Shown here: piece by piece, positions 11,228 through 59,966 of the stretch
How positions within the stretch are numbered: position 1 is the stretch's first letter
Layout of the letters: each line of letters opens with the position of its first letter
DNA from: Natrinema gari JCM 14663
GTDB taxonomy: Archaea; Halobacteriota; Halobacteria; Halobacteriales; Natrialbaceae
Length of the DNA stretch: 64,000 bases
NCBI RefSeq assembly: GCF_000337175.1
Contig: NZ_AOIJ01000051.1
Coordinates: 86,777-150,776 of the forward strand
Direction: 5' to 3'
Made by a program: the position numbers and the translations under genes
The notes under the pieces: generated by a model
Seen by the model: only the letters and a program-made list of their open reading frames with translations
Databases searched by the model: none
What the model was told of the DNA's origin: nothing

Positions 11228-11625
11228 GCGGACACGCGAACGACCGGTCGCCGAGCCACACGGTCACCCTCGAATGGCCCGACGGTCGGACGCGGACGGT
11301 CGCGGTTCGCGAGGACGAGACGGTACTGGACGGGGCCGAACGGGCCGACATCGCACTCCCATTCGGCTGTCGGACCGGTGCCTGCGGGACCTGTACGGGA
11401 CGGCTGCTCGCGGTCGACGGAGTGGAGTCGGAGCCCGATAGCGGCGACGCCGAGGACCCCGACATTGGGGCAACCATCGCCTACACCCGCCCGCCTCGGG
11501 CCCTGAAAGATCGGCACCGCGCCGAGGGCTACGTCTTGCTGTGTCTCGCCTCCCCACGAGCCGACTGTCGGATCGCGGTCGGCTCGAGCGTACAGTCGGA
11601 ATTGGTCGAAAACCCTTGGAAGTGA
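11224..11625 (+). CDS. Plant-type [2Fe-2S] ferredoxin (copy 2 of the pair)
   Basis: The 133-residue product has the same layout as the ferredoxin upstream of the SBP56 gene: HTVTLEWPDGRTRTVAV, the cluster motif FGCRTGACGTCTGRLL (Cys-x4-Cys-x2-Cys), and YVLLCLASPRADC with the fourth Cys. The likely start is GTG 11224, overlapping the SBP56 stop by two bases; no ATG fits, and the longer frame lies inside the SBP56 gene. The two ferredoxins are clearly paralogues. This is the last GC-rich backbone gene before the low-GC island. Confidence 0.88.
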   Translation: MSGHANDRSPSHTVTLEWPDGRTRTVAVREDETVLDGAERADIALPFGCRTGACGTCTGRLLAVDGVESEPDSGDAEDPDIGATIAYTRPPRALKDRHRAEGYVLLCLASPRADCRIAVGSSVQSELVENPWK

Positions 11626-11931
11626 CCCAGGATTTGAAACAATACCAGAACAAGCAGGTTAAATAATAGGTTGAACAGAAAGTTCGAAGGTTCGATCAAT
11701 GATCAGATGACACTTGAGATATGAGTTCTATACTCTCGACAGTACATGTTATATTTTTCCACTCACTACCCAGTATAATATATTCATTAATATTCAATGG
11801 AGTAAAATATGACGAATGGTTCTGTAGACCAAATATATTATTTTAACACAGAAAATATTAATATCATGGCCCCCGTATTACTAATATGATAGGGTCGTTA
11901 CCGACTCAACGACGAGACACAGAAAACAGAC
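11626..11931. other. AT-rich left edge of the low-GC island
   Basis: GC content drops sharply after the ferredoxin stop. The 300 bases hold many TATA-like runs (11771-11785, 11831-11845, 11856-11866). One very short frame at 11809-11889 has a Shine-Dalgarno and is listed separately. I see no terminal inverted repeats, tRNA gene or attachment-site duplication that would explain how the island entered. Confidence 0.5.
11809..11889 (+). CDS. Candidate 26-residue peptide gene
   Basis: ATG to TGA encodes 26 residues, beginning MTNGSVDQIYYF and ending MAPVLLI. Seven bases upstream of the ATG is GGAG at 11799-11802, a good match to an archaeal Shine-Dalgarno. A TATA-like run at 11771-11785 is at the right distance to start a transcript near 11800. 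It is 42 nt ahead of the 120-residue gene on the same strand and stands at the edge of the synthetase/MccF cluster, so it could be a precursor peptide. In DNA this AT-rich short frames arise by chance, so the call is tentative. Confidence 0.25.
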   Translation: MTNGSVDQIYYFNTENINIMAPVLLI

Positions 11932-12294
11932 ATGAGTAAGGAAGAAGACAACGACACGCAAATCGTGCGGTACACCGAAGAATCGGAATATGACGAATCT
12001 TGGCTGGCCGCAGCCGACGCTGATCGGGCGTTTTTGGCTGTCGGAGATAATAATATCGTCGTGTACGACATGCTCACAACCGACCAGTCCCTCACCAAAG
12101 AGGGTGTCGAAAAGATCACTGCCGCAGTCGAATCAAGCGACGTACGCATCGTGTCGCTAACGCCGGTCGCAGGACGATTCAAGGTGGATGGTGAGACGGA
12201 CGCCGAGGCGTTCGTGGACCGAATCGCTAGCGTCGTCCGTGACTCGACCTACTGGAAACCAGGACAGACGTTCGAAGCGGCGGTCGCTGAGTGA
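11932..12294 (+). CDS. Hypothetical acidic protein, 120 residues
   Basis: The predicted product is a small acidic soluble protein with no membrane segment or signal: MSKEEDNDTQIVRYTEE at the start, two hydrophobic strand-like stretches (RAFLAVGDNNIVVYDML, VRIVSLTPVAGRFKV), and WKPGQTFEAAV at the end. I do not recognise a family. Codon use is intermediate, closer to the backbone than the DNA before it. It converges with the long caspase-like gene 48 bp away and is the only plus-strand gene at the left end of the island besides the possible peptide gene. It could be an accessory or regulatory protein of that cluster. Confidence 0.6.
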   Translation: MSKEEDNDTQIVRYTEESEYDESWLAAADADRAFLAVGDNNIVVYDMLTTDQSLTKEGVEKITAAVESSDVRIVSLTPVAGRFKVDGETDAEAFVDRIASVVRDSTYWKPGQTFEAAVAE

Positions 12295-12342
12295 TGGGAC
12301 CACCAATGCGATGACCGATACGAACAACCATCATCCGAATAC

Positions 12343-14322
12343 TCAGATGTGCCCAATAACCATTGTCTTCACACCGAGGTAGATGTCGAGGTTACCGACG
12401 ACGTAGGCGTACACCGGGTACTCGCCAGTAGGGAGGTCGGATGTATCGACGACGAATGAAGCGGTTCGCCTTTCGTTCGGGTCGAGTCGGAGATCGATGG
12501 ATTTCGGCTCGAACCAATCGGTGCCGCGGATCGCGTCATCATCCGAGTGGAGCCACGGAAAGTATGTCGCCCGTAGTGGCACGTCGTGGGGGTTCTCGAA
12601 GGTTACATCAAACTCCACCTCGCCGACCGATGAGTCGAACAACAACTCTCTGTCTACCGTCGGGTACGACGTGTCGGTCTCCTCAAAGCGAGGGATATCG
12701 AAGATGTTGAGACACCGGGGACACATCCCTCGATCTCTCGTGACACTTCCCCGAAGATTACGGAACCGTTTCACGAATACCGGCCGACCGCAGTACTCGC
12801 ACGGTTCCTCGGCCTCAAACACGTCGCTCGGGATGGTTCGATTCGTGTACTCTCCGGACAGGAAGCCTGGACCTCGTTCGGTCAGTTTCTCCCGGATACG
12901 TTGTTGGATTCGGTCGATACTGTCGAGTGCAGTCTCAACCCGACGACGAACATCCCGATAGGCGTTCATCCGGGAACGTTGCGCAGTGAGATCGTCGGTG
13001 AATCCGGCGATCTGATTTTCGAGATTTTCGAGTTGTCCCTTCGCCTTACGGTCGAGAAATCCGATCTCTCCCAAACCTCTACCGTTCTCCACTGCCTGAT
13101 AGATAGCTGTGAGGTCGTTGCCGCTATAGGGGACATCGTCGACGACGAACCGCAGGTGGTCTGTTTGAATCGTTCCCCACGAGTACAAAAGAATTCGAAC
13201 CATCTCGCCTTCTTCGAACGCCGTGAAGAATAGCGGTGCGTCGGCGTGTTCGTCAGTAAGGTTCCGTACGTAGTACTTCCCTTCTTCGGCATCAAATCGG
13301 TCTTGGTTGAGCGACACGTCGATGACGTTGCAGTCAATATCCGTTACACTGAGGATGCACCGACCGTCCTCGGTCGTGACCGTCGCCTCGTATTGTTGTT
13401 CGACCGGTCTGGCGGTCGTAATCTCCGGACGACCGAACACACAGAATGGATAGGATTTGACGCTTCCTGCATGTGCGTTTCGGTTCAGTACCTCACACCG
13501 TTCGGCCGCGGTGTATCCGGCCCGCAGTAGCGCGTAGTGAAGTGCCATCTCCTGATTCTTCCCGTCGTATGGCCGGTAGCCAGCGATCACCGCTCCCGAC
13601 CCTTGGAGCAGTGACAGGCCGACGTGAACAGGTAGACCTGTTCCCTCCATATTGTTGGCTGGGATCATCGGAGAACAGGAGTTGAGAAAGACGTTGTCGA
13701 ACGACCACTCATCGGCCATCACCAGCGTTCCGTCGAGCGGGCAGTCCTGTTCACCGTCAGTAACGCAGTGGGGTTGTGGTCCGTCAAACGACTCGATATC
13801 CACTGCCGTTGGGAATCCACAAAGGTAGCCGTCGGTAAGAAATGAGTGAATTGTCCGTCCGTTGGTCAGCATCGACAGCGACGAGTACTCCTCAAAACGG
13901 TCCTCGAGTCGGTCGGCAGTCGCGTCCTCTCGAACCAAGACCTCGCTGTCATCGTCGTACGTGTGGATCAACTGGTTTTCTATCCGCAAGACAATTCCGT
14001 GGTCGCCATCGCCTTCGACCTCATACTCGTACAATTCACGTGCTTCCTCAACGGTTCGCCCGGTGATGATTCCAACATCACCCTCGGTTTCGAGAGTATG
14101 TTGCTGAATATCTAGCAATTCTGATTCGTTCAGTTCCGCCACTGGACAAACGAAGAGATTGTCTGTTGTAGCTGACAGTTCATCGAGTGTCTCGACGAGT
14201 TTGTCATCACGGTCGTCAGCGATGTCCGCTGCGAGCGAACGGTATTCGGAACGTTCAGTGGAACAAATCACTGCCATAATAAAGCATAATACTATGATTG
14301 GTAAAAAGAACGTGGTTAGCAT
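12343..14322 (-). CDS. Membrane-anchored caspase/C25-like protein with zinc ribbon
   Basis: This protein of about 659 residues starts with one hydrophobic segment (MLTTFFLPIIVLCFIMAV). It then has a region like caspase-fold (CHAT/C25-type) peptidases, with RTIHSFLTDGYLCGFP giving a His (159) and DNVFLNSCSP giving a Cys (216), spaced as in a His/Cys dyad, followed by GSGAVIAGYRPYDG. A coiled-coil-like stretch (QLENLENQIAGF...) comes next, then a zinc ribbon (CEYCGRPVF ... CPRCLNIFDIP) and a C-terminal beta-sandwich-like domain. The frame is open to 14418, but that would overlap the S66 peptidase gene by 65 bp, so ATG 14322 is preferred. It is the last gene of the minus-strand operon. A precursor-processing or export-linked protease is an inference. 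Confidence 0.6.
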   Translation of the reverse strand: MLTTFFLPIIVLCFIMAVICSTERSEYRSLAADIADDRDDKLVETLDELSATTDNLFVCPVAELNESELLDIQQHTLETEGDVGIITGRTVEEARELYEYEVEGDGDHGIVLRIENQLIHTYDDDSEVLVREDATADRLEDRFEEYSSLSMLTNGRTIHSFLTDGYLCGFPTAVDIESFDGPQPHCVTDGEQDCPLDGTLVMADEWSFDNVFLNSCSPMIPANNMEGTGLPVHVGLSLLQGSGAVIAGYRPYDGKNQEMALHYALLRAGYTAAERCEVLNRNAHAGSVKSYPFCVFGRPEITTARPVEQQYEATVTTEDGRCILSVTDIDCNVIDVSLNQDRFDAEEGKYYVRNLTDEHADAPLFFTAFEEGEMVRILLYSWGTIQTDHLRFVVDDVPYSGNDLTAIYQAVENGRGLGEIGFLDRKAKGQLENLENQIAGFTDDLTAQRSRMNAYRDVRRRVETALDSIDRIQQRIREKLTERGPGFLSGEYTNRTIPSDVFEAEEPCEYCGRPVFVKRFRNLRGSVTRDRGMCPRCLNIFDIPRFEETDTSYPTVDRELLFDSSVGEVEFDVTFENPHDVPLRATYFPWLHSDDDAIRGTDWFEPKSIDLRLDPNERRTASFVVDTSDLPTGEYPVYAYVVGNLDIYLGVKTMVIGHI

Positions 14323-14353
14323 AAGATCTCGAGCCGGCACAAATAACTGCCCT

Positions 14354-15364
14354 TCAGACTGCAACACCCTCTTCGAGGAGTCGAAAATTCCCTTCCTCGG
14401 AGTCAAGTTCGGCCTCAACCCCGTATGGGAGGGTCAACTGCGGATCGGTGTGGCTGACATCGACACCATAGAGGATTGGAAAGTCATATCCTTCGGTGAC
14501 CAACTGGATTATTTTTCGGAACCGCTTAGACTCCTCGCTGTCGTACTGTTTAAACCGGCCAACGACCAGCCCTTCGATCTGTTCGAACAGTCCCGCGTTC
14601 CGTAGGTCGATAAAGTACGACTCTATCTCACGAAGCGACGACTCTTCCATCGTTTCCTCTAACACAAGGATACTCCCGTTGTGGTCCGGCCAGTAGTCTG
14701 TCCCGATAACGTGCAATAGGGAGTAAGCGTGGCCGCCCAACAGTCGCCCGCGTGCGCTCCCCTTACGAAGCCACTCATATCCATTATTGTCGTGTAGCTT
14801 GCGGCGTCGTTCCAAGTCACGACGCTCGAACCAATCGAGGAACTCGTCGGTCCAGAACTCGGACGGCTCGATCGTACCTGCCAACTGTCCGGAAATCGCG
14901 TCGAAGAAATGATCGATTGTGTACTCAAACGGTTTCGGATACTCGCCAAGTTGGGGCATCGCCGTCGGACCGTGGAACGTACAGAGTTCACTCTGGGACA
15001 GCAGCGCGTACTCCAATACGGTGAGATCAGAATAGCCGGTCAGTATCGTCGGGTTGGCTGCAATTTCGTCGTAATCAAGATGCGGCAAGAGTGCACTCGT
15101 CCGATAGCCCCCAATGGTCGGCACAATCACGTCCACATCTGGGTCACGGAACGCTGCCATCAGATCTTCGGCGCGCCGTTCGGCTCGGCGCTCACCCCAG
15201 GATCCTGACTCTCGTGTCGTCTCGTACTCTCGTACCTCGAGCCCGACCCGTTCAAGAAATGCCCGCGCCCGGTCAACCCGATGATTGGCGACAGACGCCA
15301 GCGATGAACTCGGCGACACCAGTGCGACCGTACTCCCTAACGTTGCTGGATTTGGCTTTTCCAT
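14354..15364 (-). CDS. S66-family peptidase, MccF-like (microcin C immunity type)
   Basis: The 336 residues carry the S66 serine-peptidase motifs: LTGYSDLT with nucleophile Ser112, LVLEETMEE with Glu236, and VSHTDPQLTLPYG with His305. From memory, the E. coli MccF triad is Ser118-Glu243-His311, spaced 125 and 68; here the spacing is 124 and 69, whereas LdcA has a Ser-Glu gap of about 100. EWLRKGSARGRLLGGH matches the MccF loop whose Trp stacks on the nucleobase. MccF cleaves the amide joining an aminoacyl group to the toxic nucleotide. Archaea here have no peptidoglycan, which argues against an LD-carboxypeptidase role. It is the fourth gene of the minus-strand operon, behind the ABC exporter. 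Confidence 0.85.
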   Translation of the reverse strand: MEKPNPATLGSTVALVSPSSSLASVANHRVDRARAFLERVGLEVREYETTRESGSWGERRAERRAEDLMAAFRDPDVDVIVPTIGGYRTSALLPHLDYDEIAANPTILTGYSDLTVLEYALLSQSELCTFHGPTAMPQLGEYPKPFEYTIDHFFDAISGQLAGTIEPSEFWTDEFLDWFERRDLERRRKLHDNNGYEWLRKGSARGRLLGGHAYSLLHVIGTDYWPDHNGSILVLEETMEESSLREIESYFIDLRNAGLFEQIEGLVVGRFKQYDSEESKRFRKIIQLVTEGYDFPILYGVDVSHTDPQLTLPYGVEAELDSEEGNFRLLEEGVAV

Positions 15365-15426
15365 ATGTATACTTTAGTATAATGTTTTAATTGTAAAAAG
15401 ATATTGGTTAGAAGAAGGGTGCACCA

Positions 15427-16254
15427 TCACTGAACATCCGAGCGGGTCCTAGTCAAGAGGAAAAAGATGCCAGCGACAGCGAACAAGAAGTCGAAGACGA
15501 AGAGAATCAAGAGGGCTTCGAGTGGACTGTTGGCGAGTGGGAGATCACTGACGACGTTCCTCCCAAGGATAATGGAACGGGCGACATCGACCCCGTACGT
15601 GACGGGGTTAACCAAGGCCACCGGCCGAATCCATTCGGGAAGCGCATTGACCGGGAGAAAACTACTAGAGAGAAACAACAGCGGCAACTGGAGGAGATTG
15701 GCGACGAGGGTGGTCGACTCTTGGTCCTCGGTGAGCACCGCCAGTGCGTTCGAGAAGGCTAGATACCAGCCAGAGAACACGACACCGACACCGACGACGC
15801 CGAGTATTCCGAGGGTCCCCGTTTTGATCTGTGTGCCGAGCAGGAGACCAATCACAACGACGATCGCTATTTGCACGACGATCCGGGCGAAGTCGGCGAT
15901 GATCTTCCCAAGTAACATCGCCGACGGCCGCATCGGCGACGCGAGAATCTTCTCGAACATGCCGGTCTCTATGTCGTTGACCAAGCCGACACCCGAAGAG
16001 ACAGCGGAGGCGAGCGCTACTTGCATGATGATGGCTGGCAAGAGGAACGACTCATAGCTGATGCCAGGGATAGTGTCGTTCACGGCTGTACCGGCCACGT
16101 TGCCAAAAACCGTCAGGAACAACACGAGGAATACCAGTGGCTGGATGAGCGACACGGCCAGCACGAATGGATTACGAATGGCCTTCAGTCCCCAGCGTTT
16201 CGTGTTGACTACCACGTCTCCGCCGAACGAGTTCCCAGATAGTTCGTCGGTCAC
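15427..16254 (-). CDS. ABC-2 type transporter permease (DrrB-like)
   Basis: The 275-residue protein has six predicted membrane segments and the ABC-2 permease layout: a cytosolic N-terminus, FVLAVSLIQPLVFLVLF as TM1, the conserved ETGMFEKILASPMRPSAMLLGKI loop, and FLSSSFLPVNALPEWIRPVALVNPVTYGVD before the last helix. That last motif is typical of the daunorubicin-resistance (DrrB) exporters. Its start overlaps the end of the ATPase gene by four bases (16251-16254), so the two are coupled and form one exporter. Within this cluster it most likely exports the cluster's product. Confidence 0.9.
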   Translation of the reverse strand: MTDELSGNSFGGDVVVNTKRWGLKAIRNPFVLAVSLIQPLVFLVLFLTVFGNVAGTAVNDTIPGISYESFLLPAIIMQVALASAVSSGVGLVNDIETGMFEKILASPMRPSAMLLGKIIADFARIVVQIAIVVVIGLLLGTQIKTGTLGILGVVGVGVVFSGWYLAFSNALAVLTEDQESTTLVANLLQLPLLFLSSSFLPVNALPEWIRPVALVNPVTYGVDVARSIILGRNVVSDLPLANSPLEALLILFVFDFLFAVAGIFFLLTRTRSDVQ

Positions 16255-17246
16255 GCCAACCCCTCCCCAGTGACAGCGAGGAACACGTCGTCCAATGTTG
16301 GTTTACGGATGTCAAATCCCACGACCGAAATACCAGCTTCGTCAAGTGTGACCAGCAGCATCGTCCCGTGTTCCCGAACACTGTTTCCTGTGACGCTGAT
16401 CCCGTTATCAGTCTCCTCAATTGCGTTACTGTTGAACGGACCGAGATCGCGAGCAATCTCCGCGGCCCGGCGTCTCGCGCTCTGATCTCCGGTGAGTTCC
16501 ACATCTAGAATCTCATCGCCGCCCCGCCCCTTCAAATCGTTCGGGCTACCCTTGACTATAACAGACCCGTCCTGTACGAGGACCAGTCGGTCACATAGCT
16601 TGTCGGCCTCTTCGAGGTATTGGGTCGTCAATACAATCGTCGTTCCTTGGTCATTGATTCGTTGAAAGTAGTCCCACAGTCGGTCACGCCCTTCTGGGTC
16701 AAGGCCGGTGGTCGGCTCGTCGAGAAACACCACTGGAGGTTCATGGACCAGCGCCGTTGCTGCGTCAAGACGCTTTTGCATTCCGCCGGACAGTTTATCG
16801 GCTGGCTTGTCGGCCACATCTGCGAGGTCAACCAGCGACAACAGAGTCGAAATCCGCCGGCCCCGCTCGTCGCGTGGGACACCGTACGTTTCGCAGGCGA
16901 ATCGCACGTTTTCCTCGACAGTAAGCTCCGGATCAACGACTGTTTCTTGTGCCATGTAGCCGATCGATTTGCGAACATTACGGCTATCGGTCCGTACGTT
17001 AAATCCGTTGACCCGCACCTCGCCGTCACTCGGAGTTAGTAGCGTTGCCAACACTTTGATCGTCGTTGTCTTGCCTGCGCCGTTCGGGCCGAGGTAGCCG
17101 AAAAACTCTCCCTTTCTGACAGTCATGTCGATACCGTCGACTGCTGTCGTCCCGTCGGCGTATGTCACACGAAGCCCCCTCACATCGATGGCCGAGTCCG
17201 TTGACTCTCCTTCAACCTGTTTTCGACGTTCTATATCACACATCAT
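16251..17246 (-). CDS. ABC transporter ATP-binding protein (DrrA-like)
   Basis: A 331-residue ATPase with Walker A GPNGAGKTTT, signature LSGGMQKR, Walker B PPVVFLDEPTTGLDPEG and an H-loop position replaced by Gln in VLTTQYLEEADKLCD, as is usual in the DrrA subfamily. The C-terminal ~90 residues form the extra domain seen in drug-export ATPases. Together with the overlapping permease gene it forms an efflux pump. It follows the class II synthetase gene by 27 bp on the same strand. Confidence 0.93.
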   Translation of the reverse strand: MMCDIERRKQVEGESTDSAIDVRGLRVTYADGTTAVDGIDMTVRKGEFFGYLGPNGAGKTTTIKVLATLLTPSDGEVRVNGFNVRTDSRNVRKSIGYMAQETVVDPELTVEENVRFACETYGVPRDERGRRISTLLSLVDLADVADKPADKLSGGMQKRLDAATALVHEPPVVFLDEPTTGLDPEGRDRLWDYFQRINDQGTTIVLTTQYLEEADKLCDRLVLVQDGSVIVKGSPNDLKGRGGDEILDVELTGDQSARRRAAEIARDLGPFNSNAIEETDNGISVTGNSVREHGTMLLVTLDEAGISVVGFDIRKPTLDDVFLAVTGEGLA

Positions 17247-17273
17247 TAATATAAAATAGATGATGAGGATATT

Positions 17274-18401
17274 TTATGGCTTGAGGCCGGTATGAGTGCG
17301 CGGGAAGTGTGTCACCGATATGATACTCGGCATATTCAGCAGACCCTGTACAAGTCGCTCCCATCCGACGCCGAATCCGGAGGTTCGCTCGTAGTCATCA
17401 AACCGCCGTGCACGAATGTACGGCTCATAGTCCTCGCGGGGCAAATTGAAGAGATCTGCCTTCTCCTCTACGTCTTCAAGTTGGGCAACTCGCTCGCCAG
17501 TTCCAACTGTCTCTCGGTAGCCCGGCCAGATGAAGTCAGCGTTCTTCGCCACTCGCGGACCGTCGGTATCTTTTTCAGCATGGTAGAACGGTACCTCCAA
17601 GAGCGGATACTCTTGGACAGCTACGATTTTCCCATCGAAGAGTTCGGTTAGTCGGACTTCTTCCCAGTCGCTGAAGTGGGCTTCAGTGAACTCCTCGTAC
17701 TTTTTGTCGCCAGTGTCCTCACGGAGCAGCGACAGCGCCTCGTCGAACGTTACCCGCCGAACAGGATCGTCCCTCAGCTCCTCCAGTTCCACTATCTCGT
17801 CGTGACCGAGGAACTGTTTGAGATCTGATCGGCCTTCGTCGAGTAGTCGATCAAGAATCTTCACGAGAAGTTCTTCAACGATTTCCTCGTTGCGCTCCTG
17901 TCCGATCTGGCCCTCGTACTCAATGTGGTGGAACTCGGAGAGGTGCGTGTTGTCAGCTTCTTCCTTCCGGAACGAGTTGTAGATCGAGTGGACCTGATCG
18001 ACTCCTTGCTGGGCGAGCGCGAGTTCGAGATAGACCTGCGAGGACTCCGAGAGGAACGCTGTTTTCTCCATATCGAACCACTCCAGCGTAATTGGGCTGG
18101 TTTCTTCCGTGTAGTCGATAGTCTCGGAGCCAAACACTGCGCCTGGGGAAGAGATAAGGCGCGTGGTTAGCGGCAACAGGGTGTACTTTGAGCCAAGTTC
18201 ATTGAAGTATTCTACCGTCGCTTGGTAGATGTGGTGATTGACATTCGAGAGGTGAGACCAGTGCTCTTGTTCGTGAAGTTGGTACTGCCGGTCGCTGATT
18301 CGCTCGAGGAACCGATCATCGCCCTGAATGTCTTCTATCGGATCGAAGATCTTGTTTCCCTTGTAGCTAATCGTTCCGTCTCCACTTGTCGAGTACGCCA
18401 T
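17274..18401 (-). CDS. Class II synthetase core: AspRS/AsnRS-like (AsnA-type) enzyme without tRNA-binding domain
   Basis: The 375 residues correspond to the catalytic core of aspartyl/asparaginyl-tRNA synthetase: motif 1 region around HIYQATVEYFNELGSKY, TAFLSESSQVYLELAL (the usual LaqSpQ segment), motif 2 at ~144-164 (NSFRKEEADNTHLSEFHH) and motif 3 near the end (SGFGVGWERLVQGLL). There is no N-terminal OB-fold anticodon-binding domain, only ~50 unrelated residues. Such stand-alone cores include the archaeal AspRS-derived asparagine synthetase, and as I recall the agrocin 84 plasmid encodes an AsnRS-like protein as well. It probably activates an amino acid and passes it to a small acceptor. 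It heads the minus-strand operon; ATG 18401 faces the LeuRS gene. Confidence 0.82.
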   Translation of the reverse strand: MAYSTSGDGTISYKGNKIFDPIEDIQGDDRFLERISDRQYQLHEQEHWSHLSNVNHHIYQATVEYFNELGSKYTLLPLTTRLISSPGAVFGSETIDYTEETSPITLEWFDMEKTAFLSESSQVYLELALAQQGVDQVHSIYNSFRKEEADNTHLSEFHHIEYEGQIGQERNEEIVEELLVKILDRLLDEGRSDLKQFLGHDEIVELEELRDDPVRRVTFDEALSLLREDTGDKKYEEFTEAHFSDWEEVRLTELFDGKIVAVQEYPLLEVPFYHAEKDTDGPRVAKNADFIWPGYRETVGTGERVAQLEDVEEKADLFNLPREDYEPYIRARRFDDYERTSGFGVGWERLVQGLLNMPSIISVTHFPRTHTGLKP

Positions 18402-18626
18402 GTCTGGAATTTAGCTATTCAATTAATTAAATTTTACTTTGTATACATACATATATAGCCTTCGGATTTACATCCCAATGATAATTCAATAAAACCATTA
18501 GTAAATCAGCCACATATATACTTCTGTACACTCAGGGCAATGCGTTCAGCTGTATTGTAGTTTATATGTTTTATATATAGATAGATTTCGAACAATATTT
18601 TAACGAGTGATGTGTAATAAGTCGGT
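18402..18626. promoter_or_regulatory. Divergent promoter region between synthetase core and leucyl-tRNA synthetase
   Basis: This 225-bp AT-rich spacer separates two divergent genes and must hold both promoters. For the LeuRS direction a clear box, TTTTATATATAG, lies at about 18569-18580, 52 nt before the ATG, giving a leader of some 25 nt. A second plus-strand box (CATATATAC, 18512-18521) is 23 nt before an isolated ATG at 18540. On the minus strand TATA-like sequences lie near 18421-18434 and 18446-18455. Sharing one short regulatory region suggests that production and immunity genes are co-regulated. Confidence 0.6.
18540..18560 (+). CDS. Candidate six-codon minigene (MRSAVL)
   Basis: ATG CGT TCA GCT GTA TTG TAG sits 23 nt downstream of a TATA-like box at 18512-18521, the position expected for a leaderless start. 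The encoded hexapeptide is MRSAVL. It lies between the synthetase core and LeuRS genes. It could be a chance frame, a leader peptide for LeuRS (it ends in a Leu codon), or a minimal precursor peptide as in microcin C, whose precursor is a heptapeptide. There is no statistical support for a gene this short. Confidence 0.15.
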   Translation: MRSAVL

Positions 18627-21473
18627 ATGAGAAGTTATGACCCGGGTGTAATAGAAGAGAAGTGGCGACAGCGGTGGGAGAAAACCGGTCGCTATCAGTC
18701 CGACCCCAACGACGAGGGCGAAGGAGTACTAATTACCGTTCCGTACACATATCCGAGCGGCGGGATGCATATAGGGCACGCGAGTACGTACTCAATCCCG
18801 GACGGAATCGCTCGGTATCACCGAATGAAGGGGGAGAACGTCCTTTATCCGATGGGTTGGCACGTCACTGGGACGCCGATCGTCGGTGCTGTCAATCGAC
18901 TAAAAGAGGGCGAAGAAGCCCAAATCTCTACTCTTCGAGATACATACAACGTGCCCGAATCAGACCTCGAATCCCTCGAAACGCCAATGGGATTTGCACA
19001 GTACTTCATCGAGAACTATTATAAGACAAATCTTCGGGCCCTCGGAGTGTCTATTGACTGGCGACGCGAGTTCACGACACACGACGAGCGATACCAGCGA
19101 TTTATCCAGTGGCAGTACCAAACTCTTCAAGATCGAGGATTGTTGGAGCAGGGACTTCATCCAGTCAAGTACTGCACGAGTGAAGATCAGCCGGTGACGA
19201 CTCACGACATTCTAGAAGGGGAGCATGCGGACTTTCAGGAGTACACCCTCGTCAAGTTCCAAAGCGATGATTCATTGGACGAGGCAGTCGTTCCAACGTC
19301 GACGCTCCGTCCCGAGACGGTTCGGGGAGTGACAAACGTGTATGTGAACCCGGATGTGACGTACGTCCATGCAGACGTGGACAGTGAGTCGTGGCTCGTT
19401 TCGACGGAGGCGGTCGAGAAGCTTCAGCTGCAGGAACGCGACATCTCAGTCACGAGGGAGATTTCCGGCGAAGAGTTGGTTGGAACTCGCCTTACGAATC
19501 CAGTCACCAATGAGTCGATACCAGTGTTTCCGGGCGAGTTCGTCGATCCGAACGGAGGGACTGGCGTGGTAATGTCGGTTCCAGCCCACAGCCCGGACGA
19601 CTGGCTGGAGCTACAACGTATTCAGTCGGACGAAGAGTACCTGGCCGAGTACGGCCTCGACCCCGAAGTCGTTCAATCCATTGATCCGCAAACGGTCGTC
19701 TCGACGGAAGAGTACGGTGAGATTCCAGCGCGCGACGTTGTCGAACGAAACAACATCTCGTCGGTCGACGATGCTAAGTTGAGCGAGGTCACCGAAACAC
19801 TGTACGAACGTGAATACCATCAGGGTCGTCTTGTAGATAGTTACGACGACAAGTACGCCGGAGAAGTTATCGAAGAGGTTCGTGACCAACTCCGTGCAGA
19901 GTACAAAGCCGATGGAATCGCCGATTCGCTATACGACTTCGCCGAAGAGGTGATCTGTCGGTGTGGTGGCAAGGTAGAGGTCGCAAAACAGGATTCGTGG
20001 TTTATTCGGTACAACGACGAGACATGGAAGCAGAAGACGCGCCAGGCGGTCGAGCAACTCGAACCGGTACCTGAAAGCACTCGCGAACAGTTCCATCATG
20101 CTATCGGTTGGCTCGAAGAGTGGCCCTGCATCCGAAACTTCGGGTTAGGAACGCCACTTCCAGCCGACGAAGACTTCATAATCGAACCGTTGTCAGACTC
20201 GACTATCTATCCAGCGTTCTATACAATCGCCCACCGGTTGCAGAATATCCCGCCTGAGGCGCTGGACAAAGAGTTCTTTGACGCGCTGTTCTTCGGGCTG
20301 GACGCGGTCGATGATCCCGACGAGCGTGCCTTGGACCTGCGTCAGGAGTGGCAATACTGGTATCCGGTAAACGTGCGATTGTCAGCGAACGATTTAGTCG
20401 AGAACCATCTTACGTTTTACCTCTACCATCACGCGGAACTGTTCGACAAGTCGATGTGGCCGGAAGGTATCACCATAATGGGAATGGGCCTGTTGGAAGG
20501 TCGTGGGATGAGCTCTTCAAGCGGACACGTCGTCCTGCCGGACAACGCTGTCTCGAAGTATGGCGCGGACGCCGTCCGGCTGTTCCTGTTTAATAGCTCG
20601 GAGCCGTGGCAGGATTTTAATTGGAAAGAAGAATCCGTCTCTTCAGCGAGAGATCAGATCGAGAGCTTCTACGAACGAGCGATGGAAGTCATTGAGATGC
20701 CGGAGGGCGAGCAGTCGTTAGAGCGTATCGACCGATGGTTACTCTCGAAGCTCCAAGACGCCATCCGGGAGACGACATCAGCGATGGAGAACTACGAGAC
20801 CCGCTCAGCGAGTCAGACAGCGCTATATCAGATGAACAAACATCTCCGATGGTACCGGCGTCGGACGGACCTCGACCGACCCGGCGCACGCTGGACGCAA
20901 CGGCAGGTGCTGGAAACGCAACTCCGACTTCTTGCGCCCTTCGTCCCGTTCATCACGAACGAGTTATACGAGCAATTGACTGGCGAACCAGTAGAGGATG
21001 CGAGTTGGCCGACAGTGAACGAAAAGTTCGATGATGAGCGTGCCAAACTCCAAGAAGAGTTGATTCGAGACTTGACCGACGACATACGAGACATCGAGAG
21101 AGTCACCGACACAGATCCTGACACCATCACATTAGCGCTCGCTGACAAGTGGAAACACGAGGTTTTCGAGACCGTCGTAGCGGCGGACTTCGAGACAAAC
21201 GCGGCGATGGAAGAGTTGATGACCACTGATGAAACGCGCAAACGTGGTGACGCAGTCAGCGACCTCGTCTCACAGTTCGTTGACCGTTTCCGTGGTCGCG
21301 ACGAGGCAGAGCTTGCACTGTTGACCGACATAAACGAGAGGGATGTCTACGAATCAGCTGTCGAGTTCCTCGCCAACGAATTTGGCGCGAGTGTCCAAAT
21401 CGATGGCGGTGATGTTCCTGACGCGGACGCAGAAAAAGCCGATCCGTTCCGGCCTGCCGTCCACATCGAGTAA
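18627..21473 (+). CDS. leuS: Leucyl-tRNA synthetase, archaeal type, probably an accessory copy
   Basis: The 948-residue protein is a full-length archaeal LeuRS: N-terminal SYDPGVIEEKWRQRWE, HIGH as MHIGHASTYS near residue 50, the CP1 editing domain with STLRPETVRGVTNVYV and GTGVVMSVPAHSPDDW, a zinc-type CRCGGKVEVAKQDSWF segment, and the KMSKS position near residue 628 reading RGMSSSSGHVV, where the usual signature lysines are Ser or absent. The anticodon-binding helices and C-terminal part are intact. GC content is well below that of backbone genes, so it is likely transferred and not the housekeeping copy. Next to an MccF-like peptidase and exporter it looks like a resistant target copy. ATG at 18627 overlaps the stop of a possible 6-codon frame at 18610. 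Confidence 0.92.
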   Translation: MRSYDPGVIEEKWRQRWEKTGRYQSDPNDEGEGVLITVPYTYPSGGMHIGHASTYSIPDGIARYHRMKGENVLYPMGWHVTGTPIVGAVNRLKEGEEAQISTLRDTYNVPESDLESLETPMGFAQYFIENYYKTNLRALGVSIDWRREFTTHDERYQRFIQWQYQTLQDRGLLEQGLHPVKYCTSEDQPVTTHDILEGEHADFQEYTLVKFQSDDSLDEAVVPTSTLRPETVRGVTNVYVNPDVTYVHADVDSESWLVSTEAVEKLQLQERDISVTREISGEELVGTRLTNPVTNESIPVFPGEFVDPNGGTGVVMSVPAHSPDDWLELQRIQSDEEYLAEYGLDPEVVQSIDPQTVVSTEEYGEIPARDVVERNNISSVDDAKLSEVTETLYEREYHQGRLVDSYDDKYAGEVIEEVRDQLRAEYKADGIADSLYDFAEEVICRCGGKVEVAKQDSWFIRYNDETWKQKTRQAVEQLEPVPESTREQFHHAIGWLEEWPCIRNFGLGTPLPADEDFIIEPLSDSTIYPAFYTIAHRLQNIPPEALDKEFFDALFFGLDAVDDPDERALDLRQEWQYWYPVNVRLSANDLVENHLTFYLYHHAELFDKSMWPEGITIMGMGLLEGRGMSSSSGHVVLPDNAVSKYGADAVRLFLFNSSEPWQDFNWKEESVSSARDQIESFYERAMEVIEMPEGEQSLERIDRWLLSKLQDAIRETTSAMENYETRSASQTALYQMNKHLRWYRRRTDLDRPGARWTQRQVLETQLRLLAPFVPFITNELYEQLTGEPVEDASWPTVNEKFDDERAKLQEELIRDLTDDIRDIERVTDTDPDTITLALADKWKHEVFETVVAADFETNAAMEELMTTDETRKRGDAVSDLVSQFVDRFRGRDEAELALLTDINERDVYESAVEFLANEFGASVQIDGGDVPDADAEKADPFRPAVHIE

Positions 21474-21548
21474 CGGCACTCGCAACACATCGTTCGCGTC
21501 AACCAATCCAGCCTCGCACCAAAAAACAGCAGACTTAACGGTCAGTCG

Positions 21549-22358
21549 TCAGTTGTTGACCGGACTATTGGTGAACAGTTCGGCTTCGTATCCCGGATCC
21601 TCGCGATATATCAGCAACGAGTACCGGAGGGGTTGTAGATTCTCACGGAATAAAAGCAAGTATTCTCGGTACGTCTCATTGATTAGTTCGCGGTCGTCCC
21701 GATCGAACTCGGAGAGGTCACTCTGTTCGAGGATCTCGTCGGCGTATGCTTCGACTGCCGACTCTGGGGCGAAATCGAATTCGTATTCGGAATCATGATA
21801 CAACCTGAGGTCGGACCGATCGAAGAATTCCCGCCAGTGGTCGCGAGTTGTTACGTCGATGTGCGTCCCAATGGCATCACGCACGTCGGCCAACAACTCT
21901 TCATCTGGCTGTCGGACATAGTACATCGGTAATGCAACGAGGAACCCGCCTGAACGAAGGACGCGTCGGTACTCTTCAAGCGCAGCCTCAGTATCACCAA
22001 CGTACGACGTGACGTTGCCGACGAATACTACGTCAAACGTTTCGTCATCGTACGGTAGGTTCGTCGCATCTTCCTGTTCAAATGAAATGTTCTCGTCGGC
22101 GTTAAGATTCTTGGCTCGGCGTTGGGCTTCCGTGAGGCTCTCCTCGTTGATGTCGATAGCCGTTACCGAACAGCCAATGAGTCGCGATAATTCAATGGCA
22201 GTGAAGCCAGTACTCGTTCCCACTTCCAATACCTCGTCGTCGACAGTAAGTAGGGTTCGCTGAGCCGCTTCCGTCACTGACTCGATCCCGCCAGGTGGAC
22301 GGTTTGTCTCGTTGACGATCCCGATGATATCCATGTAATTTGGCTCCTCTATATCCAT
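21549..22358 (-). CDS. SAM-dependent methyltransferase (class I)
   Basis: The 269-residue protein has the class I methyltransferase core: motif I EVLEVGTSTGFTAIEL, acidic motif II SVTAIDINEESL, motif III region EQEDATNLPYDDETFDVVFVGN, and the ubiE-like block EYRRVLRSGGFLVALPMYYV. The C-terminal 100 residues are family-specific and may bind the substrate. It converges with LeuRS 75 bp away, has the same low GC content and is the last intact gene of the island. In the cluster it may tailor the product; the substrate is unknown. Confidence 0.83.
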   Translation of the reverse strand: MDIEEPNYMDIIGIVNETNRPPGGIESVTEAAQRTLLTVDDEVLEVGTSTGFTAIELSRLIGCSVTAIDINEESLTEAQRRAKNLNADENISFEQEDATNLPYDDETFDVVFVGNVTSYVGDTEAALEEYRRVLRSGGFLVALPMYYVRQPDEELLADVRDAIGTHIDVTTRDHWREFFDRSDLRLYHDSEYEFDFAPESAVEAYADEILEQSDLSEFDRDDRELINETYREYLLLFRENLQPLRYSLLIYREDPGYEAELFTNSPVNN

Positions 22359-22399
22359 ATTTGGTAATTGTTGAGAGAATAAATATAATTAACGATTTA

Positions 22400-22704
22400 G
22401 CAACAACAATACAGGATGGCCACTGTCTCAGTACCTCCTCAGCTAGCGTCTGTCTATCGAGCAGCTGATGCGGTCTCTGGTGGTCATAATAATGCACGAA
22501 CTATTCAATCCATTCGCGTGCGCTGTCAGCAAGCCGATGTACCCTGTTCCAGACTGCACCGTGAGAGCGCTCAACGCCTAATTCAGTAGGATCGTTGTAT
22601 ATTCCGAATAGACAACCAGTCTGGTGGAGGCGAACGGCCTTTGGAACGTTCGCCGTCCGCTCGTTTTCCCAAGGTTCTTCTAAATCTTCGTTGTATCCTC
22701 CGTT
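22400..22704 (-). pseudogene. Internally deleted IS transposase (haloarchaeal IS6-like)
   Basis: One minus-strand frame reads NGGYNEDLEEPWENERTANV, then KAVRLHQTG, then LGVERSHGAVWNRVHRLAD, which is the N-terminal part of a haloarchaeal transposase. It passes directly into SAREWIE-stop-FVHYYDHQRPHQLLDRQTLAEEV, the C-terminal end of the same type of protein. The central DDE catalytic core of roughly 130 residues is missing and an in-frame stop follows, so it is dead. It stands between the island's methyltransferase and ligA and marks the right edge of the low-GC region. Confidence 0.75.
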
Positions 22705-22780
22705 AAGCAGGTCTAGTGAGCATTAGCCCAACTCAACGGCCTGTTCACTTCTCAAACTGGCTCAACTAGACAGTTCCTAG

Positions 22781-24970
<2,190 letters not shown>

Positions 24971-37470: not shown

Positions 37471-37569
37471 GTTTGAGTGACTGCTATCCATGGCTCATCT
37501 ATGAACCCGGTTGCGGATAATGTATTTGAGGGGTAAATTATTAATATCTGTACTGTGTATAGATGTAAT

Positions 37570-38085
37570 ATGGCACATAGAAAGCCAATTAACAGTAGTC
37601 GAAGGAAAGTACTGAAGACGCTAGGTGCTACATCTGTTGTGAGTTCTGGATTCGTGGTTACTGGAGCGGCGTCACGTGGTTCAAAGGTTGTAGGAGTTGC
37701 ATATAATCCTTATACCCACGAAATTTTGGGTGAGGCATCTGCTCAATTCAACCAGAATTCTGATAAGCTTGTTGGCAATTTGAACATAGATGGTAGGAAA
37801 TATAGAATCGACCAGAAAAATACACATTCAAATTTTAATTACCCAAATAAAAATCTGAATATTAGGTCCTTTAGAGAGGTGAAAAAACCGATGGGACAAA
37901 AGAAGAAAAAAGGAAAATATAATGAAATGGTCAAGGTCATGGTCCCAGACAATGGTAACATCACCGGCTTTGTTCGTTCTCCGGAGTCGCTTGAAAGAAC
38001 AGGATTTACATTAAGTAATGAAAGAAATGGCAAATATGATAGTCTCCTGAACACGCTCGAAAAAACGGAAAAAGGTGAACAATAA
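37570..38085 (+). CDS. Tat-exported hypothetical protein of the AT-rich patch
   Basis: The 171-residue product begins with a twin-arginine signal (SSRRKVLKTLGATSVVSSGF, then VTGAAS). The mature domain is basic and polar, unusual for a halophile (NIDGRKYRIDQKNTHSNFN, and a KKPMGQKKKKGK stretch), with strand-forming KVVGVAYNPYTHEILGEASAQF at its start. I do not recognise a family. It starts at ATG 37570; the stop overlaps the next start (TAATG), so the two are coupled. Codon use is strikingly AT-rich compared with the flanks, indicating recent transfer. Confidence 0.72.
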   Translation: MAHRKPINSSRRKVLKTLGATSVVSSGFVVTGAASRGSKVVGVAYNPYTHEILGEASAQFNQNSDKLVGNLNIDGRKYRIDQKNTHSNFNYPNKNLNIRSFREVKKPMGQKKKKGKYNEMVKVMVPDNGNITGFVRSPESLERTGFTLSNERNGKYDSLLNTLEKTEKGEQ

Positions 38086-38789
38086 TGTCTACTCTAAATG
38101 TTGACGGGACTTACGAGGTCATTCCAAGTGCATGCCAATCTAAAGATAGACATGATTTTTCGGAATATATTGAAGACGACTATAAGTATACTACATATAT
38201 ACTAGCGGATACAGATGTTGATTCCTTTGAGGAACCATTAGATCCTTCAATTCCTTCCGGAGATTCGACTACCTGGGCATTTATGTGGCATTATATAGAT
38301 GAGCCAGAGCGTAAGGGAGAGTACAAAGATTATCCAGATTATGGATGGACTTGGAACAATATGGAAGTGTCGCTAGAATATGGTGACGATAGGTTTGAGA
38401 CTGATATAGATGTTGAGAATCCATATCCAAGTGGGTCCAGTGAATATGATGAATTTGCACTCTCAGTTGGCGCAGGGTATGGGCCAATATCAGTAGGTGT
38501 ATCAAAATCGGTTACCCCCGATGGGGTTTCAGTAGACAGTGAGGACTATCAATATACCGAATGGGAAATTCCATTTAATTCATTCCCCACTAGTCAAGAG
38601 GACGCTGCAGGAGTTGCATTTGATATAAAAGGTGGAAATAGTTATATAACATCACCACTTACTGCAGAATGGTCCCGGGGGTTTGGAGTTATTGAATATG
38701 TCCCTCAGGCAAGAGAACCCTACGACGTTATTTATAGCCGTGAAGAGGGAGATTCAATGGACATAGAAGTTGATATTAAGCCCAGCTGA
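38085..38789 (+). CDS. Hypothetical protein, coupled to the Tat-exported gene
   Basis: The 234-residue acidic protein has no signal peptide or membrane helix. It is rich in Tyr, Asp and Ser with aromatic strand-like segments (TWAFMWHYIDEPERKGEYKD, YGWTWNNMEVSLEYG, SVGAGYGPISVGVSKSVTP), suggestive of a beta-rich fold. The GYGPISVGVSKS segment is reminiscent of beta-barrel or toxin-like sequences, but I cannot assign it. It overlaps the upstream stop by one base, so both products may work as a pair (for example secreted factor and partner). Confidence 0.65.
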   Translation: MSTLNVDGTYEVIPSACQSKDRHDFSEYIEDDYKYTTYILADTDVDSFEEPLDPSIPSGDSTTWAFMWHYIDEPERKGEYKDYPDYGWTWNNMEVSLEYGDDRFETDIDVENPYPSGSSEYDEFALSVGAGYGPISVGVSKSVTPDGVSVDSEDYQYTEWEIPFNSFPTSQEDAAGVAFDIKGGNSYITSPLTAEWSRGFGVIEYVPQAREPYDVIYSREEGDSMDIEVDIKPS

Positions 38790-38861
38790 TTAACTGCCAT
38801 ATTACAATTCCCATATGGTGTTTTAAAACATTTTAGTATAAATAGATAGAACAAACATACA

Positions 38862-39500
38862 ATGTTGAGCAGACACAATTTATTAACTGTATTAATATTT
38901 TCCACAGGATTGGTTTTAATTCTGAGTACCAGCTATTTTTATCCAGAGGGAGGCGGTGATAGGAAAATGACCTATAATGTTGAAAAAATAGAGAATGAAT
39001 CAATGGCAGAAGCAGCTCTTATGTTATCAGACCAAACATTAACTTGCCCTGGTGCCAGAGAATGCGTTTTTGAAGAGGAGGTTCACGAAGAGGGTCCGCT
39101 AAAATATAATGGACAAATTGATCGGGGTCCCTCTTACCCTGTTGTTCAAATAGAGGGAATAACATACATTCCAAAACATAATATAAGTGGAAACAATACT
39201 GAATTCACATTACAGGAGATATCCGCTATTAATGCAATTGAATATGCTGCTATCCCAGTTGAAGACCAATCTTCAGAAGTTCAGAAAGCGGTCAAAACGG
39301 GATCAGTAACTGTATATGATAAAGAAGTCCAATCATTTGAACAAGGAGATATTCTGGAGTTTGAAAATGAATATTATTATAAAACAGGAAAGCAGTCTCA
39401 ACCAACTTCTTGGGTAGCAGGGAGTGGAACCACCATAGTACGGAGTGCTATTTGCATTGCAGGAGGGCTATTAATCTTCCTCGCAGGAAAAAGAGCCTGA
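38862..39500 (+). CDS. Two-helix membrane protein of the AT-rich patch
   Basis: The 212 residues have an N-terminal helix (LLTVLIFSTGLVLILSTSYF), an outward-facing domain with two close cysteines (LTCPGARECVFEEEV) that could form a disulfide, and a C-terminal helix (TTIVRSAICIAGGLLIFLAG). It has its own TATA-like box at 38834-38846, about 22-28 nt upstream of the ATG. Family unknown. The position after two coupled unknown genes would fit an immunity or anchor protein, but that is only inference. Confidence 0.68.
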   Translation: MLSRHNLLTVLIFSTGLVLILSTSYFYPEGGGDRKMTYNVEKIENESMAEAALMLSDQTLTCPGARECVFEEEVHEEGPLKYNGQIDRGPSYPVVQIEGITYIPKHNISGNNTEFTLQEISAINAIEYAAIPVEDQSSEVQKAVKTGSVTVYDKEVQSFEQGDILEFENEYYYKTGKQSQPTSWVAGSGTTIVRSAICIAGGLLIFLAGKRA

Positions 39501-59261: not shown

Positions 59262-59966
59262 ATGTCGAAAGATAACTTGAAGATCGAGGCTTCAAGGAGA
59301 AAAGTTCTTCGAACAATGGGTACAAGCGGTGCAGTAGCAACCGGAATAGCAGTTTCGTCCAATACCGTTTCTGCTCGTTCAGAGTATGAATCAGAGCTTC
59401 AAAAACTCGAACAAAAATACGACTCTAAACAGTCGATCCAACGAGCAATAGATGAACATTCACTGGCTACCCTTCAATTACTCTCGAAACACGATATTAT
59501 TGACAAGCCGTCATCTTCATCGTTACCTCTTGGACAGTCAATCAATATCGCTGATGTAGAATCGGCACAGAACAGAGACGGTTTTGCTGTTACGTCAATC
59601 GTTGAAGATGGAGAAGCGACAGGATTCATCGCAATTTCACATACTACTGACGACCGTGACCTCTCGTTATACGTTCAACCCGAACGGGAGGAGTCCTATG
59701 CGTATGTAAGAGACGATGAGGGAACGAAATTGTTCCAATCAAAATCGAGAGAGGATGAACCAAGTGAATCATCCGAAGACGGCACTGTAACGACGTTACA
59801 AGACTGTTCAGAAGTGTGCTACGAGTCAAGATGTACAAATAGAGATTGCTATGTTATCTGGAATGTAGGTGTCGACTATAAGTGTTGTGTGGATGAAAAC
59901 GGGAATGAAGAATGTAACAGAACAGGAAGTTCCGGCTGCCAATGTGGAGATCGAAAATGTGAGTAA
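59262..59966 (+). CDS. Tat-exported Cys-rich precursor, halocin C8-like
   Basis: The 234-residue protein has three parts: a twin-arginine signal (ASRRKVLRTMGTSGAVATGI), a hydrophilic pro-region (~40-178), and a C-terminal tail of about 53 residues with ten Cys (182, 186, 191, 196, 208, 209, 218, 226, 228, 233). Its pattern starts DCSEVCYESRC and includes EECNRTGSSGCQC. From memory, mature halocin C8 also has ten Cys, opens with CSxxC and ends with ACNRAGLC, and is cut from a Tat-exported precursor whose pro-part gives immunity. The organisation here is alike, so a secreted peptide antibiotic is likely. AT-rich codon use marks it as acquired. Confidence 0.75.
   Translation: MSKDNLKIEASRRKVLRTMGTSGAVATGIAVSSNTVSARSEYESELQKLEQKYDSKQSIQRAIDEHSLATLQLLSKHDIIDKPSSSSLPLGQSINIADVESAQNRDGFAVTSIVEDGEATGFIAISHTTDDRDLSLYVQPEREESYAYVRDDEGTKLFQSKSREDEPSESSEDGTVTTLQDCSEVCYESRCTNRDCYVIWNVGVDYKCCVDENGNEECNRTGSSGCQCGDRKCE

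Follow-up and report, generated by a model that had tools for sequence, protein, structure and literature searches.

The 64,000-nucleotide stretch of DNA analysed here (the window) contains an island of low GC content (0.532, compared with 0.637 in the remaining window), flanked on the left by a 2Fe-2S ferredoxin gene (end at 11625) and on the right by ligA (start at 22853). An initial annotation had described such a low-GC island at 11809-22358; its location holds, but its natural boundaries were corrected to approximately 11,630 and 22,850, a block of ~11.2 kb. The genes that had been proposed for it, namely an S66 peptidase, an ABC permease and ATPase, a class II synthetase core, a LeuRS, and a methyltransferase, were recovered at or near the positions where they had been placed (Table 1).

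Table 1. Features of the low-GC island, in window coordinates
Feature	Coordinates	Strand	Basis
Low-GC island	11630..22850	.	Between 2Fe-2S ferredoxin gene and ligA; empty site, flank identity, GC
120-aa protein, function unknown	11932..12294	+	Counterpart in N. altunense copy, 81%
~644-aa protein, function unknown	12343..14277	-	Start revised; no family match
S66 peptidase, MccF type, predicted self-immunity hydrolase	14354..15364	-	S112, W178, E236, H305
ABC-2 permease (DrrB-like), predicted exporter	15427..16254	-	
ABC ATPase (DrrA-like), predicted exporter	16251..17246	-	
AgnA-type synthetase, 375 aa, predicted acyl-adenylate/phosphoramidate-forming	17274..18401	-	AsnRS core without OB-fold
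Archaeal-type LeuRS (LeuRS-A), divergent; predicted self-immune target copy	18627..21473	+	HIGH, editing, anticodon domains
SAM-dependent transferase, MccD/AgnB1 family, 269 aa; predicted phosphate decoration	21549..22358	-	

Only ~40-60 bp separate the ferredoxin gene from ligA in five further genomes of the genus, and a second carrier, Natrinema altunense AJ2, has the island genes in identical order with protein identities of 80-95%. The island is therefore a genuine insertion, with the same site occupied in a second species. The synthetase was seen in 2 of 29 genus genomes, the source genome included; one of the scans for it covered 23 of the 29 directly. In one genus genome, the ligA match is split in two, and one of the pieces has an in-frame TAA (G028:C1:3111777-3114050). 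Elsewhere in the window, a low-GC open reading frame at 59262-59966, whose product carries a Tat-like signal and is rich in Cys at the C-terminus, recalls secreted halocin precursors. A region of very low GC at 37555-39500 holds three open reading frames of unassigned family; a Tat-like signal is present in the first, and the ends of the third are hydrophobic. Neither region had a Pfam or NCBIfam match.

The class II core aligns to positions 113-449 of the 451-position AsnRS profile and retains the class II motifs. Because the match begins only at position 113, the N-terminal OB-fold (anticodon-binding) domain is missing, consistent with the earlier description of a core without a tRNA-binding domain. 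Its identity is 25% to AgnA directly and 30-33% to bacterial AgnA-like proteins, and a DPANN relative used as a tblastn query against pAgK84 matched AgnA (27%, E 6e-20). In a tree of 44 proteins, 25 archaeal or metagenomic and 8 bacterial AgnA-like proteins form an AgnA-type clade (support 100/100) separate from the sampled AsnRS, AspRS, and LysRS, with the caveat that long branches meet and that archaeal asparagine synthetase A was left out. These 33 proteins share S85, P86, D150, and H159, where the sampled AsnRS have E, G, N/K, and M, and the ATP-binding Arg of motifs 2 and 3 is retained in AgnA-type proteins. By these comparisons, the island core belongs with AgnA, the agrocin 84 synthetase. 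A review of the agn locus describes agnA as a truncated AsnRS homologue turned biosynthetic enzyme (PMC4392301). AgnA-like proteins are frequently annotated as asparagine synthetase A; plain asparagine synthetase A (PRK06462) was rejected for the window protein, which scores 49-97 bits against cut-offs of 309-389. In a search of the PDB, AsnRS structures were much better matches than solved AS-A for AgnA and the window protein alike.

The methyltransferase-fold protein is 40% identical to the product of the gene adjoining agnA (AgnB1), 43% and 47% identical to the corresponding neighbours in Xenorhabdus and Streptomyces, and 29% identical across 174 residues to MccD of pMccC7-H22. Its top solved structure is likewise MccD (E 1.3e-21; next match 7e-14). 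On identity and structure search it is thus assigned to the MccD/AgnB1 family, with aminocarboxypropyl versus methyl transfer undecided. In microcin C, MccD and MccE add an aminopropyl group to the phosphate (PMC7136475, PMC9239234). Two loci without a partner aaRS (L018 and L024) carry a PLP decarboxylase with weak similarity to the N-terminal portion of MccE.

The S66 peptidase, which had been called MccF-like, matches MccF structures best, with up to 185 bits compared with 42-96 bits for LdcA-type structures; an LD-carboxypeptidase or peptidoglycan role was rejected on these scores. Its S112, W178, E236, and H305 correspond to S118, W186, E243, and H311 of MccF, and these four key positions (a Ser-Glu-His triad plus Trp) are kept in all 16 S66 proteins aligned, which came from AgnA-type and mcc loci. 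From structural work on MccF, we take W186 to be the residue that stacks against adenine. The island copy is 31% identical to AgnC5 and is the single S66 gene in the 4-Mb source genome. It is predicted to be a self-immunity hydrolase of the MccF type, an activity inferred from the conserved catalytic and adenine-binding residues.

The island LeuRS is of archaeal type (1043 bits against a cut-off of 677) and full length, its profile match retaining the HIGH motif and the catalytic, editing, and anticodon-binding domains. The enzyme had been described as divergent, and the tree bears this out: it nests inside haloarchaeal LeuRS-A on a stem of 0.57, compared with end branches of ~0.01-0.25 elsewhere. 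Additionally, 28 other haloarchaeal LeuRS-A share 346 invariant positions, of which 42 are altered in the island enzyme, whereas the others have 0-7 such changes when left out. Nine of the 42 fall within residues 30-80 around HIGH (p 0.015, although the region was picked post hoc), and those beside HIGH include P41T and R53S. GMSSSSG replaces KMSSSKG, which is not a unique resistance mark because several ordinary haloarchaeal LeuRS-A also vary there. AgnB2, the tested resistant immunity LeuRS of agrocin 84, which weakens tRNA-dependent toxin binding, is also changed around HIGH (T42) and in KMSKS (KQSKS) (PMC5059758). The Pro-to-Thr change near HIGH in the island enzyme is not that of AgnB2, as it lies two residues away at a different site, and AgnB2 is only 23-27% identical to the island LeuRS, over parts. 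Changes in the HIGH and KMSKS regions of both enzymes, at differing positions, are therefore suggestive only. The island gene appears to encode a fast-evolved archaeal LeuRS; its resistance to the product is inferred, as the sequence gives accelerated change only.

The initial annotation had proposed looking for a second leuS, without which an immunity role would fail. Two further genes were found in the source genome (G000:C51:83700-86327 and C62:39055-41802), so that the LeuRS-A gene is not the sole leuS. Both are bacterial type and match the island LeuRS only weakly (~30% over parts), as would be expected of the haloarchaeal LeuRS-B form (PMC3436685). The first of these bacterial-type genes is on the same contig as the island LeuRS, ~20 kb from it and immediately ahead of position 1 of the window. 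It can be hypothesised that an archaeal LeuRS could resist, by descent, a toxin built for bacterial-type LeuRS.

The 644-aa protein had been labelled a caspase-like membrane protein, and this label is doubtful. A homologue in another haloarchaeon begins at the equivalent of position 14277, which is the likeliest start rather than 14418; the hydrophobic N-terminus therefore seems to stem from a start called too far upstream, and the protein itself is more probably soluble. Pfam, NCBIfam, and PADLOC gave no match for it, and its predicted structure is unusable (pLDDT 37). An SC motif is the sole basis for the caspase reading, and where the homologue has the His of an HG motif, the window protein has Asn. 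Homologues in other haloarchaea adjoin an MFS transporter (L165), have a MATE efflux gene and an aminopeptidase nearby (L193), or sit within a biosynthetic-looking cluster (L194). From these neighbours, it may be guessed that the protein takes part in export or self-protection.

Of 391 haloarchaeal genomes sampled, 4 carry the synthetase; it also occurs in 10 of the 371 genomes from one DPANN phylum and at 23 loci recovered by a GTDB-wide scan, which demands exact peptide words. No relative was found in IMG/VR viral contigs. Most named matches are from Woese-, Pace-, Nano-, Micr-, and Parvarchaeota, and a few bins that carry it and are labelled bacterial may be misbinned. Among 27 archaeal or metagenomic loci other than the window, an MccD/AgnB1-type methyltransferase is beside the synthetase in 19, and an S66 gene is within the examined stretch in 14; several of the other loci end near the synthetase. 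In most sampled synthetase-bearing genomes, the only S66 gene, or one of 2-3, is within a few kb of the synthetase, and this linkage therefore exceeds chance. A search for co-occurrence in other genomes had also been proposed at the outset: all of the gene families are together in N. altunense, and the core set recurs in DPANN archaea, Halomicroarcula, and bacterial plasmids. The Halomicroarcula loci have the synthetase and methyltransferase with no aaRS nearby, and the S66 gene is 7-24 kb off.

The partner aaRS varies in specificity among loci (Leu, Pro, Lys, Ala, and perhaps Asp), as expected if the partner marks the target. LeuRS-partnered loci are those of pAgK84, Xenorhabdus, the window, and N. 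altunense; LeuRS is the sole aaRS partner in pAgK84 and both Natrinema islands, and a full LeuRS is accompanied by a ProRS-like protein in Xenorhabdus. Similarly, a full bacterial-type ProRS adjoins a divergent ProRS-like protein in L023 and L078, L077 has a full LysRS and a LysRS-like protein, and plasmids of Peribacillus and Exiguobacterium (L087 and L088) have a full AlaRS and an AlaRS-related protein. L016 has an AspRS-like protein and, on the opposite strand, a normal AspRS, possibly the housekeeping copy. Most simply, the full-length partner can be read as the immune copy of the target and the stripped paralogue as a biosynthetic enzyme. Where the two have the same specificity (Lys in L077, Pro in L023 and L078, Ala in L087 and L088), they may predict targets.

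Two further plasmid loci were noted. In Streptomyces sp. NBC_01707 (L089, 9926-18068), an AgnA-like gene occurs with a methyltransferase, FAD and molybdopterin subunits of molybdenum-hydroxylase type, a ProRS-like protein, and an S66 gene. This gene set would fit phosmidosine, which we take to be a prolyl phosphoramidate of 8-oxoadenosine whose phosphate is methylated, and the locus is a candidate phosmidosine-type cluster. In Pantoea agglomerans (L086, 9395-10990), an AgnA-like core is part of a 531-aa protein annotated as a GNAT acetyltransferase and adjoining an MFS transporter, possibly a fusion of synthesis and MccE-like immunity.

Overall, the interpretation given in the initial annotation, a cluster that makes, exports, and resists a leucyl-adenylate mimic, is largely upheld and more firmly supported. 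The island is considered likely, with a rough probability of 0.76, to encode synthesis of, export of, and self-immunity to an aminoacyl-phosphoramidate nucleotide aimed at LeuRS; the product, the acid coupled in it, and the resistance of the LeuRS are matters of inference. Judged by homology, the synthetase of AgnA type would activate a carboxylic acid with ATP and form a stable N-acyl phosphoramidate of AMP, without loading a tRNA. The MccD/AgnB1-type transferase would then modify this intermediate, most likely at the phosphate, and the DrrAB-like ABC pump would export the product. Immunity would have two layers: the MccF-type peptidase, given its conserved catalytic and adenine-binding residues, would cut the acyl-nucleotide bond of product remaining in the cell, and the extra archaeal LeuRS would sustain leucylation if the product, as a leucyl-adenylate mimic, inhibits both LeuRS of bacterial type. 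Susceptible neighbours with bacterial-type LeuRS only would be the victims. Against this reading, AgnC-type genes and a second aaRS-like paralogue are both absent from the island, in which no enzyme that obviously makes or loads a leucine-like acid was found; the Halomicroarcula loci, without a nearby aaRS, also count against it. The acid could be a common metabolite used by the AgnA-type enzyme or could be supplied by a chromosomal enzyme.

It is conceivable, although unlikely, that the locus makes an aminoacyl-nucleotide for which the LeuRS provides leucyl-AMP or leucyl-tRNA as a building block, rather than serving as an immunity copy. In its favour, such cassettes commonly contain divergent aaRS paralogues (ProRS-like, LysRS-like, and AlaRS-related) of biosynthetic appearance, no other aaRS-like paralogue accompanies the LeuRS in the window, and the KMSKS loop of the LeuRS is altered. 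However, unlike the stripped paralogues, the island LeuRS is full length and keeps HIGH and the editing and anticodon-binding domains, and the corresponding LeuRS of pAgK84, AgnB2, is a tested immunity enzyme (PMC5059758). Less plausible still is a cassette that makes a non-antibiotic nucleotide metabolite (a signal, a cofactor, or part of tRNA or asparagine metabolism), with the LeuRS an unrelated passenger. Linkage of the synthetase to an MccF-type S66 peptidase, an MccD-type methyltransferase, an exporter, and variable aaRS partners argues against this, as do the characterised relatives agrocin 84 and microcin C, which are toxins (PMC4392301, PMC9239234). The absence of S66 or aaRS genes from several loci would agree with such a metabolite, as would the asparagine synthetase A annotations and the weak match of the window protein to those profiles, but its scores fall short of the cut-offs given above. 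S66 peptidases, ABC pumps, and alternative LeuRS are known types of resistance. That the island only detoxifies or withstands a toxin made by others, for which each of these three has precedent (PMC9239234, PMC5059758), is very improbable in the presence of an AgnA-type synthetase and an MccD-type transferase, whose counterparts on pAgK84 and in mcc operons serve production. Anti-phage defence was also set aside, as PADLOC gave no match except a generic methyltransferase match (mad2).

With less assurance than the LeuRS-aimed antibiotic itself, the balance of evidence tilts toward a wider class, in which AgnA-MccD-MccF cassettes would make nucleotide antibiotics across domains with exchangeable target modules: a copy of the attacked aaRS (Leu, Pro, Lys, Ala, and perhaps Asp), often joined by a stripped, amino-acid-loading paralogue. 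Such a class would recur in uncultivated DPANN archaea and, in haloarchaea, would provide the first archaeal antibiotic that mimics an aminoacyl-adenylate. To our knowledge, halocins and sulfolobicins, the known archaeal antibiotics, are all peptides or proteins. If true, a nucleotide antibiotic of agrocin type in a haloarchaeal genus that can be cultivated would be a new chemical class among them. It would also directly explain at least one case of haloarchaeal LeuRS duplication, an open question (PMC3436685), and would open to testing what DPANN archaea may produce against neighbouring cells. Additionally, the sequence of the paired aaRS genes would by itself predict which target each cluster has.

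The comparison with agrocin 84 drawn in the initial annotation can be extended from analogy to homology, as pAgK84 of Agrobacterium radiobacter K84 carries AgnA, AgnB1, AgnB2, and the MccF-like AgnC5, all detectably related to window genes. Shared with the agrocin 84 locus are the AgnA-type synthetase, the AgnB1-family transferase, a second LeuRS, the MccF-like S66 peptidase, and the lack of any precursor peptide found; when one was sought in the island, no conserved small open reading frame was present in the gap between synthetase and LeuRS. In contrast, agnC1-C4, C6, C7, D, and E, which account for the special acid, sugar, and glucosyl parts, are missing from the island, and no agnC/D/E genes for the methylpentanamide, 3'-deoxyarabinose, and N6-glucosyl parts were found in 11,630-22,850. 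Furthermore, the island has a DrrAB-like ABC exporter, its LeuRS is archaeal whereas that of the agrocin 84 locus is bacterial, and the hosts belong to different domains (Archaea and Bacteria). The microcin C operon (mccABCDEF, pMccC7-H22) shares the MccD-family transferase and the MccF immunity peptidase. Unlike that operon, the island is without an MccA precursor, a ThiF-type MccB (profile searches of the island gave no ThiF match), and MccE; its exporter is ABC rather than MFS, an AgnA-type synthetase is present, and LeuRS rather than AspRS is implied.

Also related are the AgnA-type clusters of Xenorhabdus bovienii, Peribacillus, Exiguobacterium, Streptomyces, and Bradyrhizobium plasmids, which share an AgnA-like core with a methyltransferase and/or S66 gene and, in X. 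bovienii, a full LeuRS. They differ in having extra biosynthetic genes, aaRS-related paralogues, and other partner aaRS (Ala, Pro-like). The coexistence of archaeal and bacterial LeuRS is shared with the haloarchaeal LeuRS-A/LeuRS-B duplication, for which antibiotic resistance has been raised as a possible reason (Andam et al. 2012, PMC3436685). That study reports no linkage of LeuRS-A to antibiotic-type genes; the island LeuRS is a long-branch LeuRS-A copy. The initial annotation knew of no such system in Archaea, and the searchable literature, with many journals outside the search, likewise yielded no archaeal agrocin or microcin C system. Neither an agrocin 84 locus nor an mcc operon, the island falls within the broader AgnA-MccD-MccF group as one of its archaeal members.
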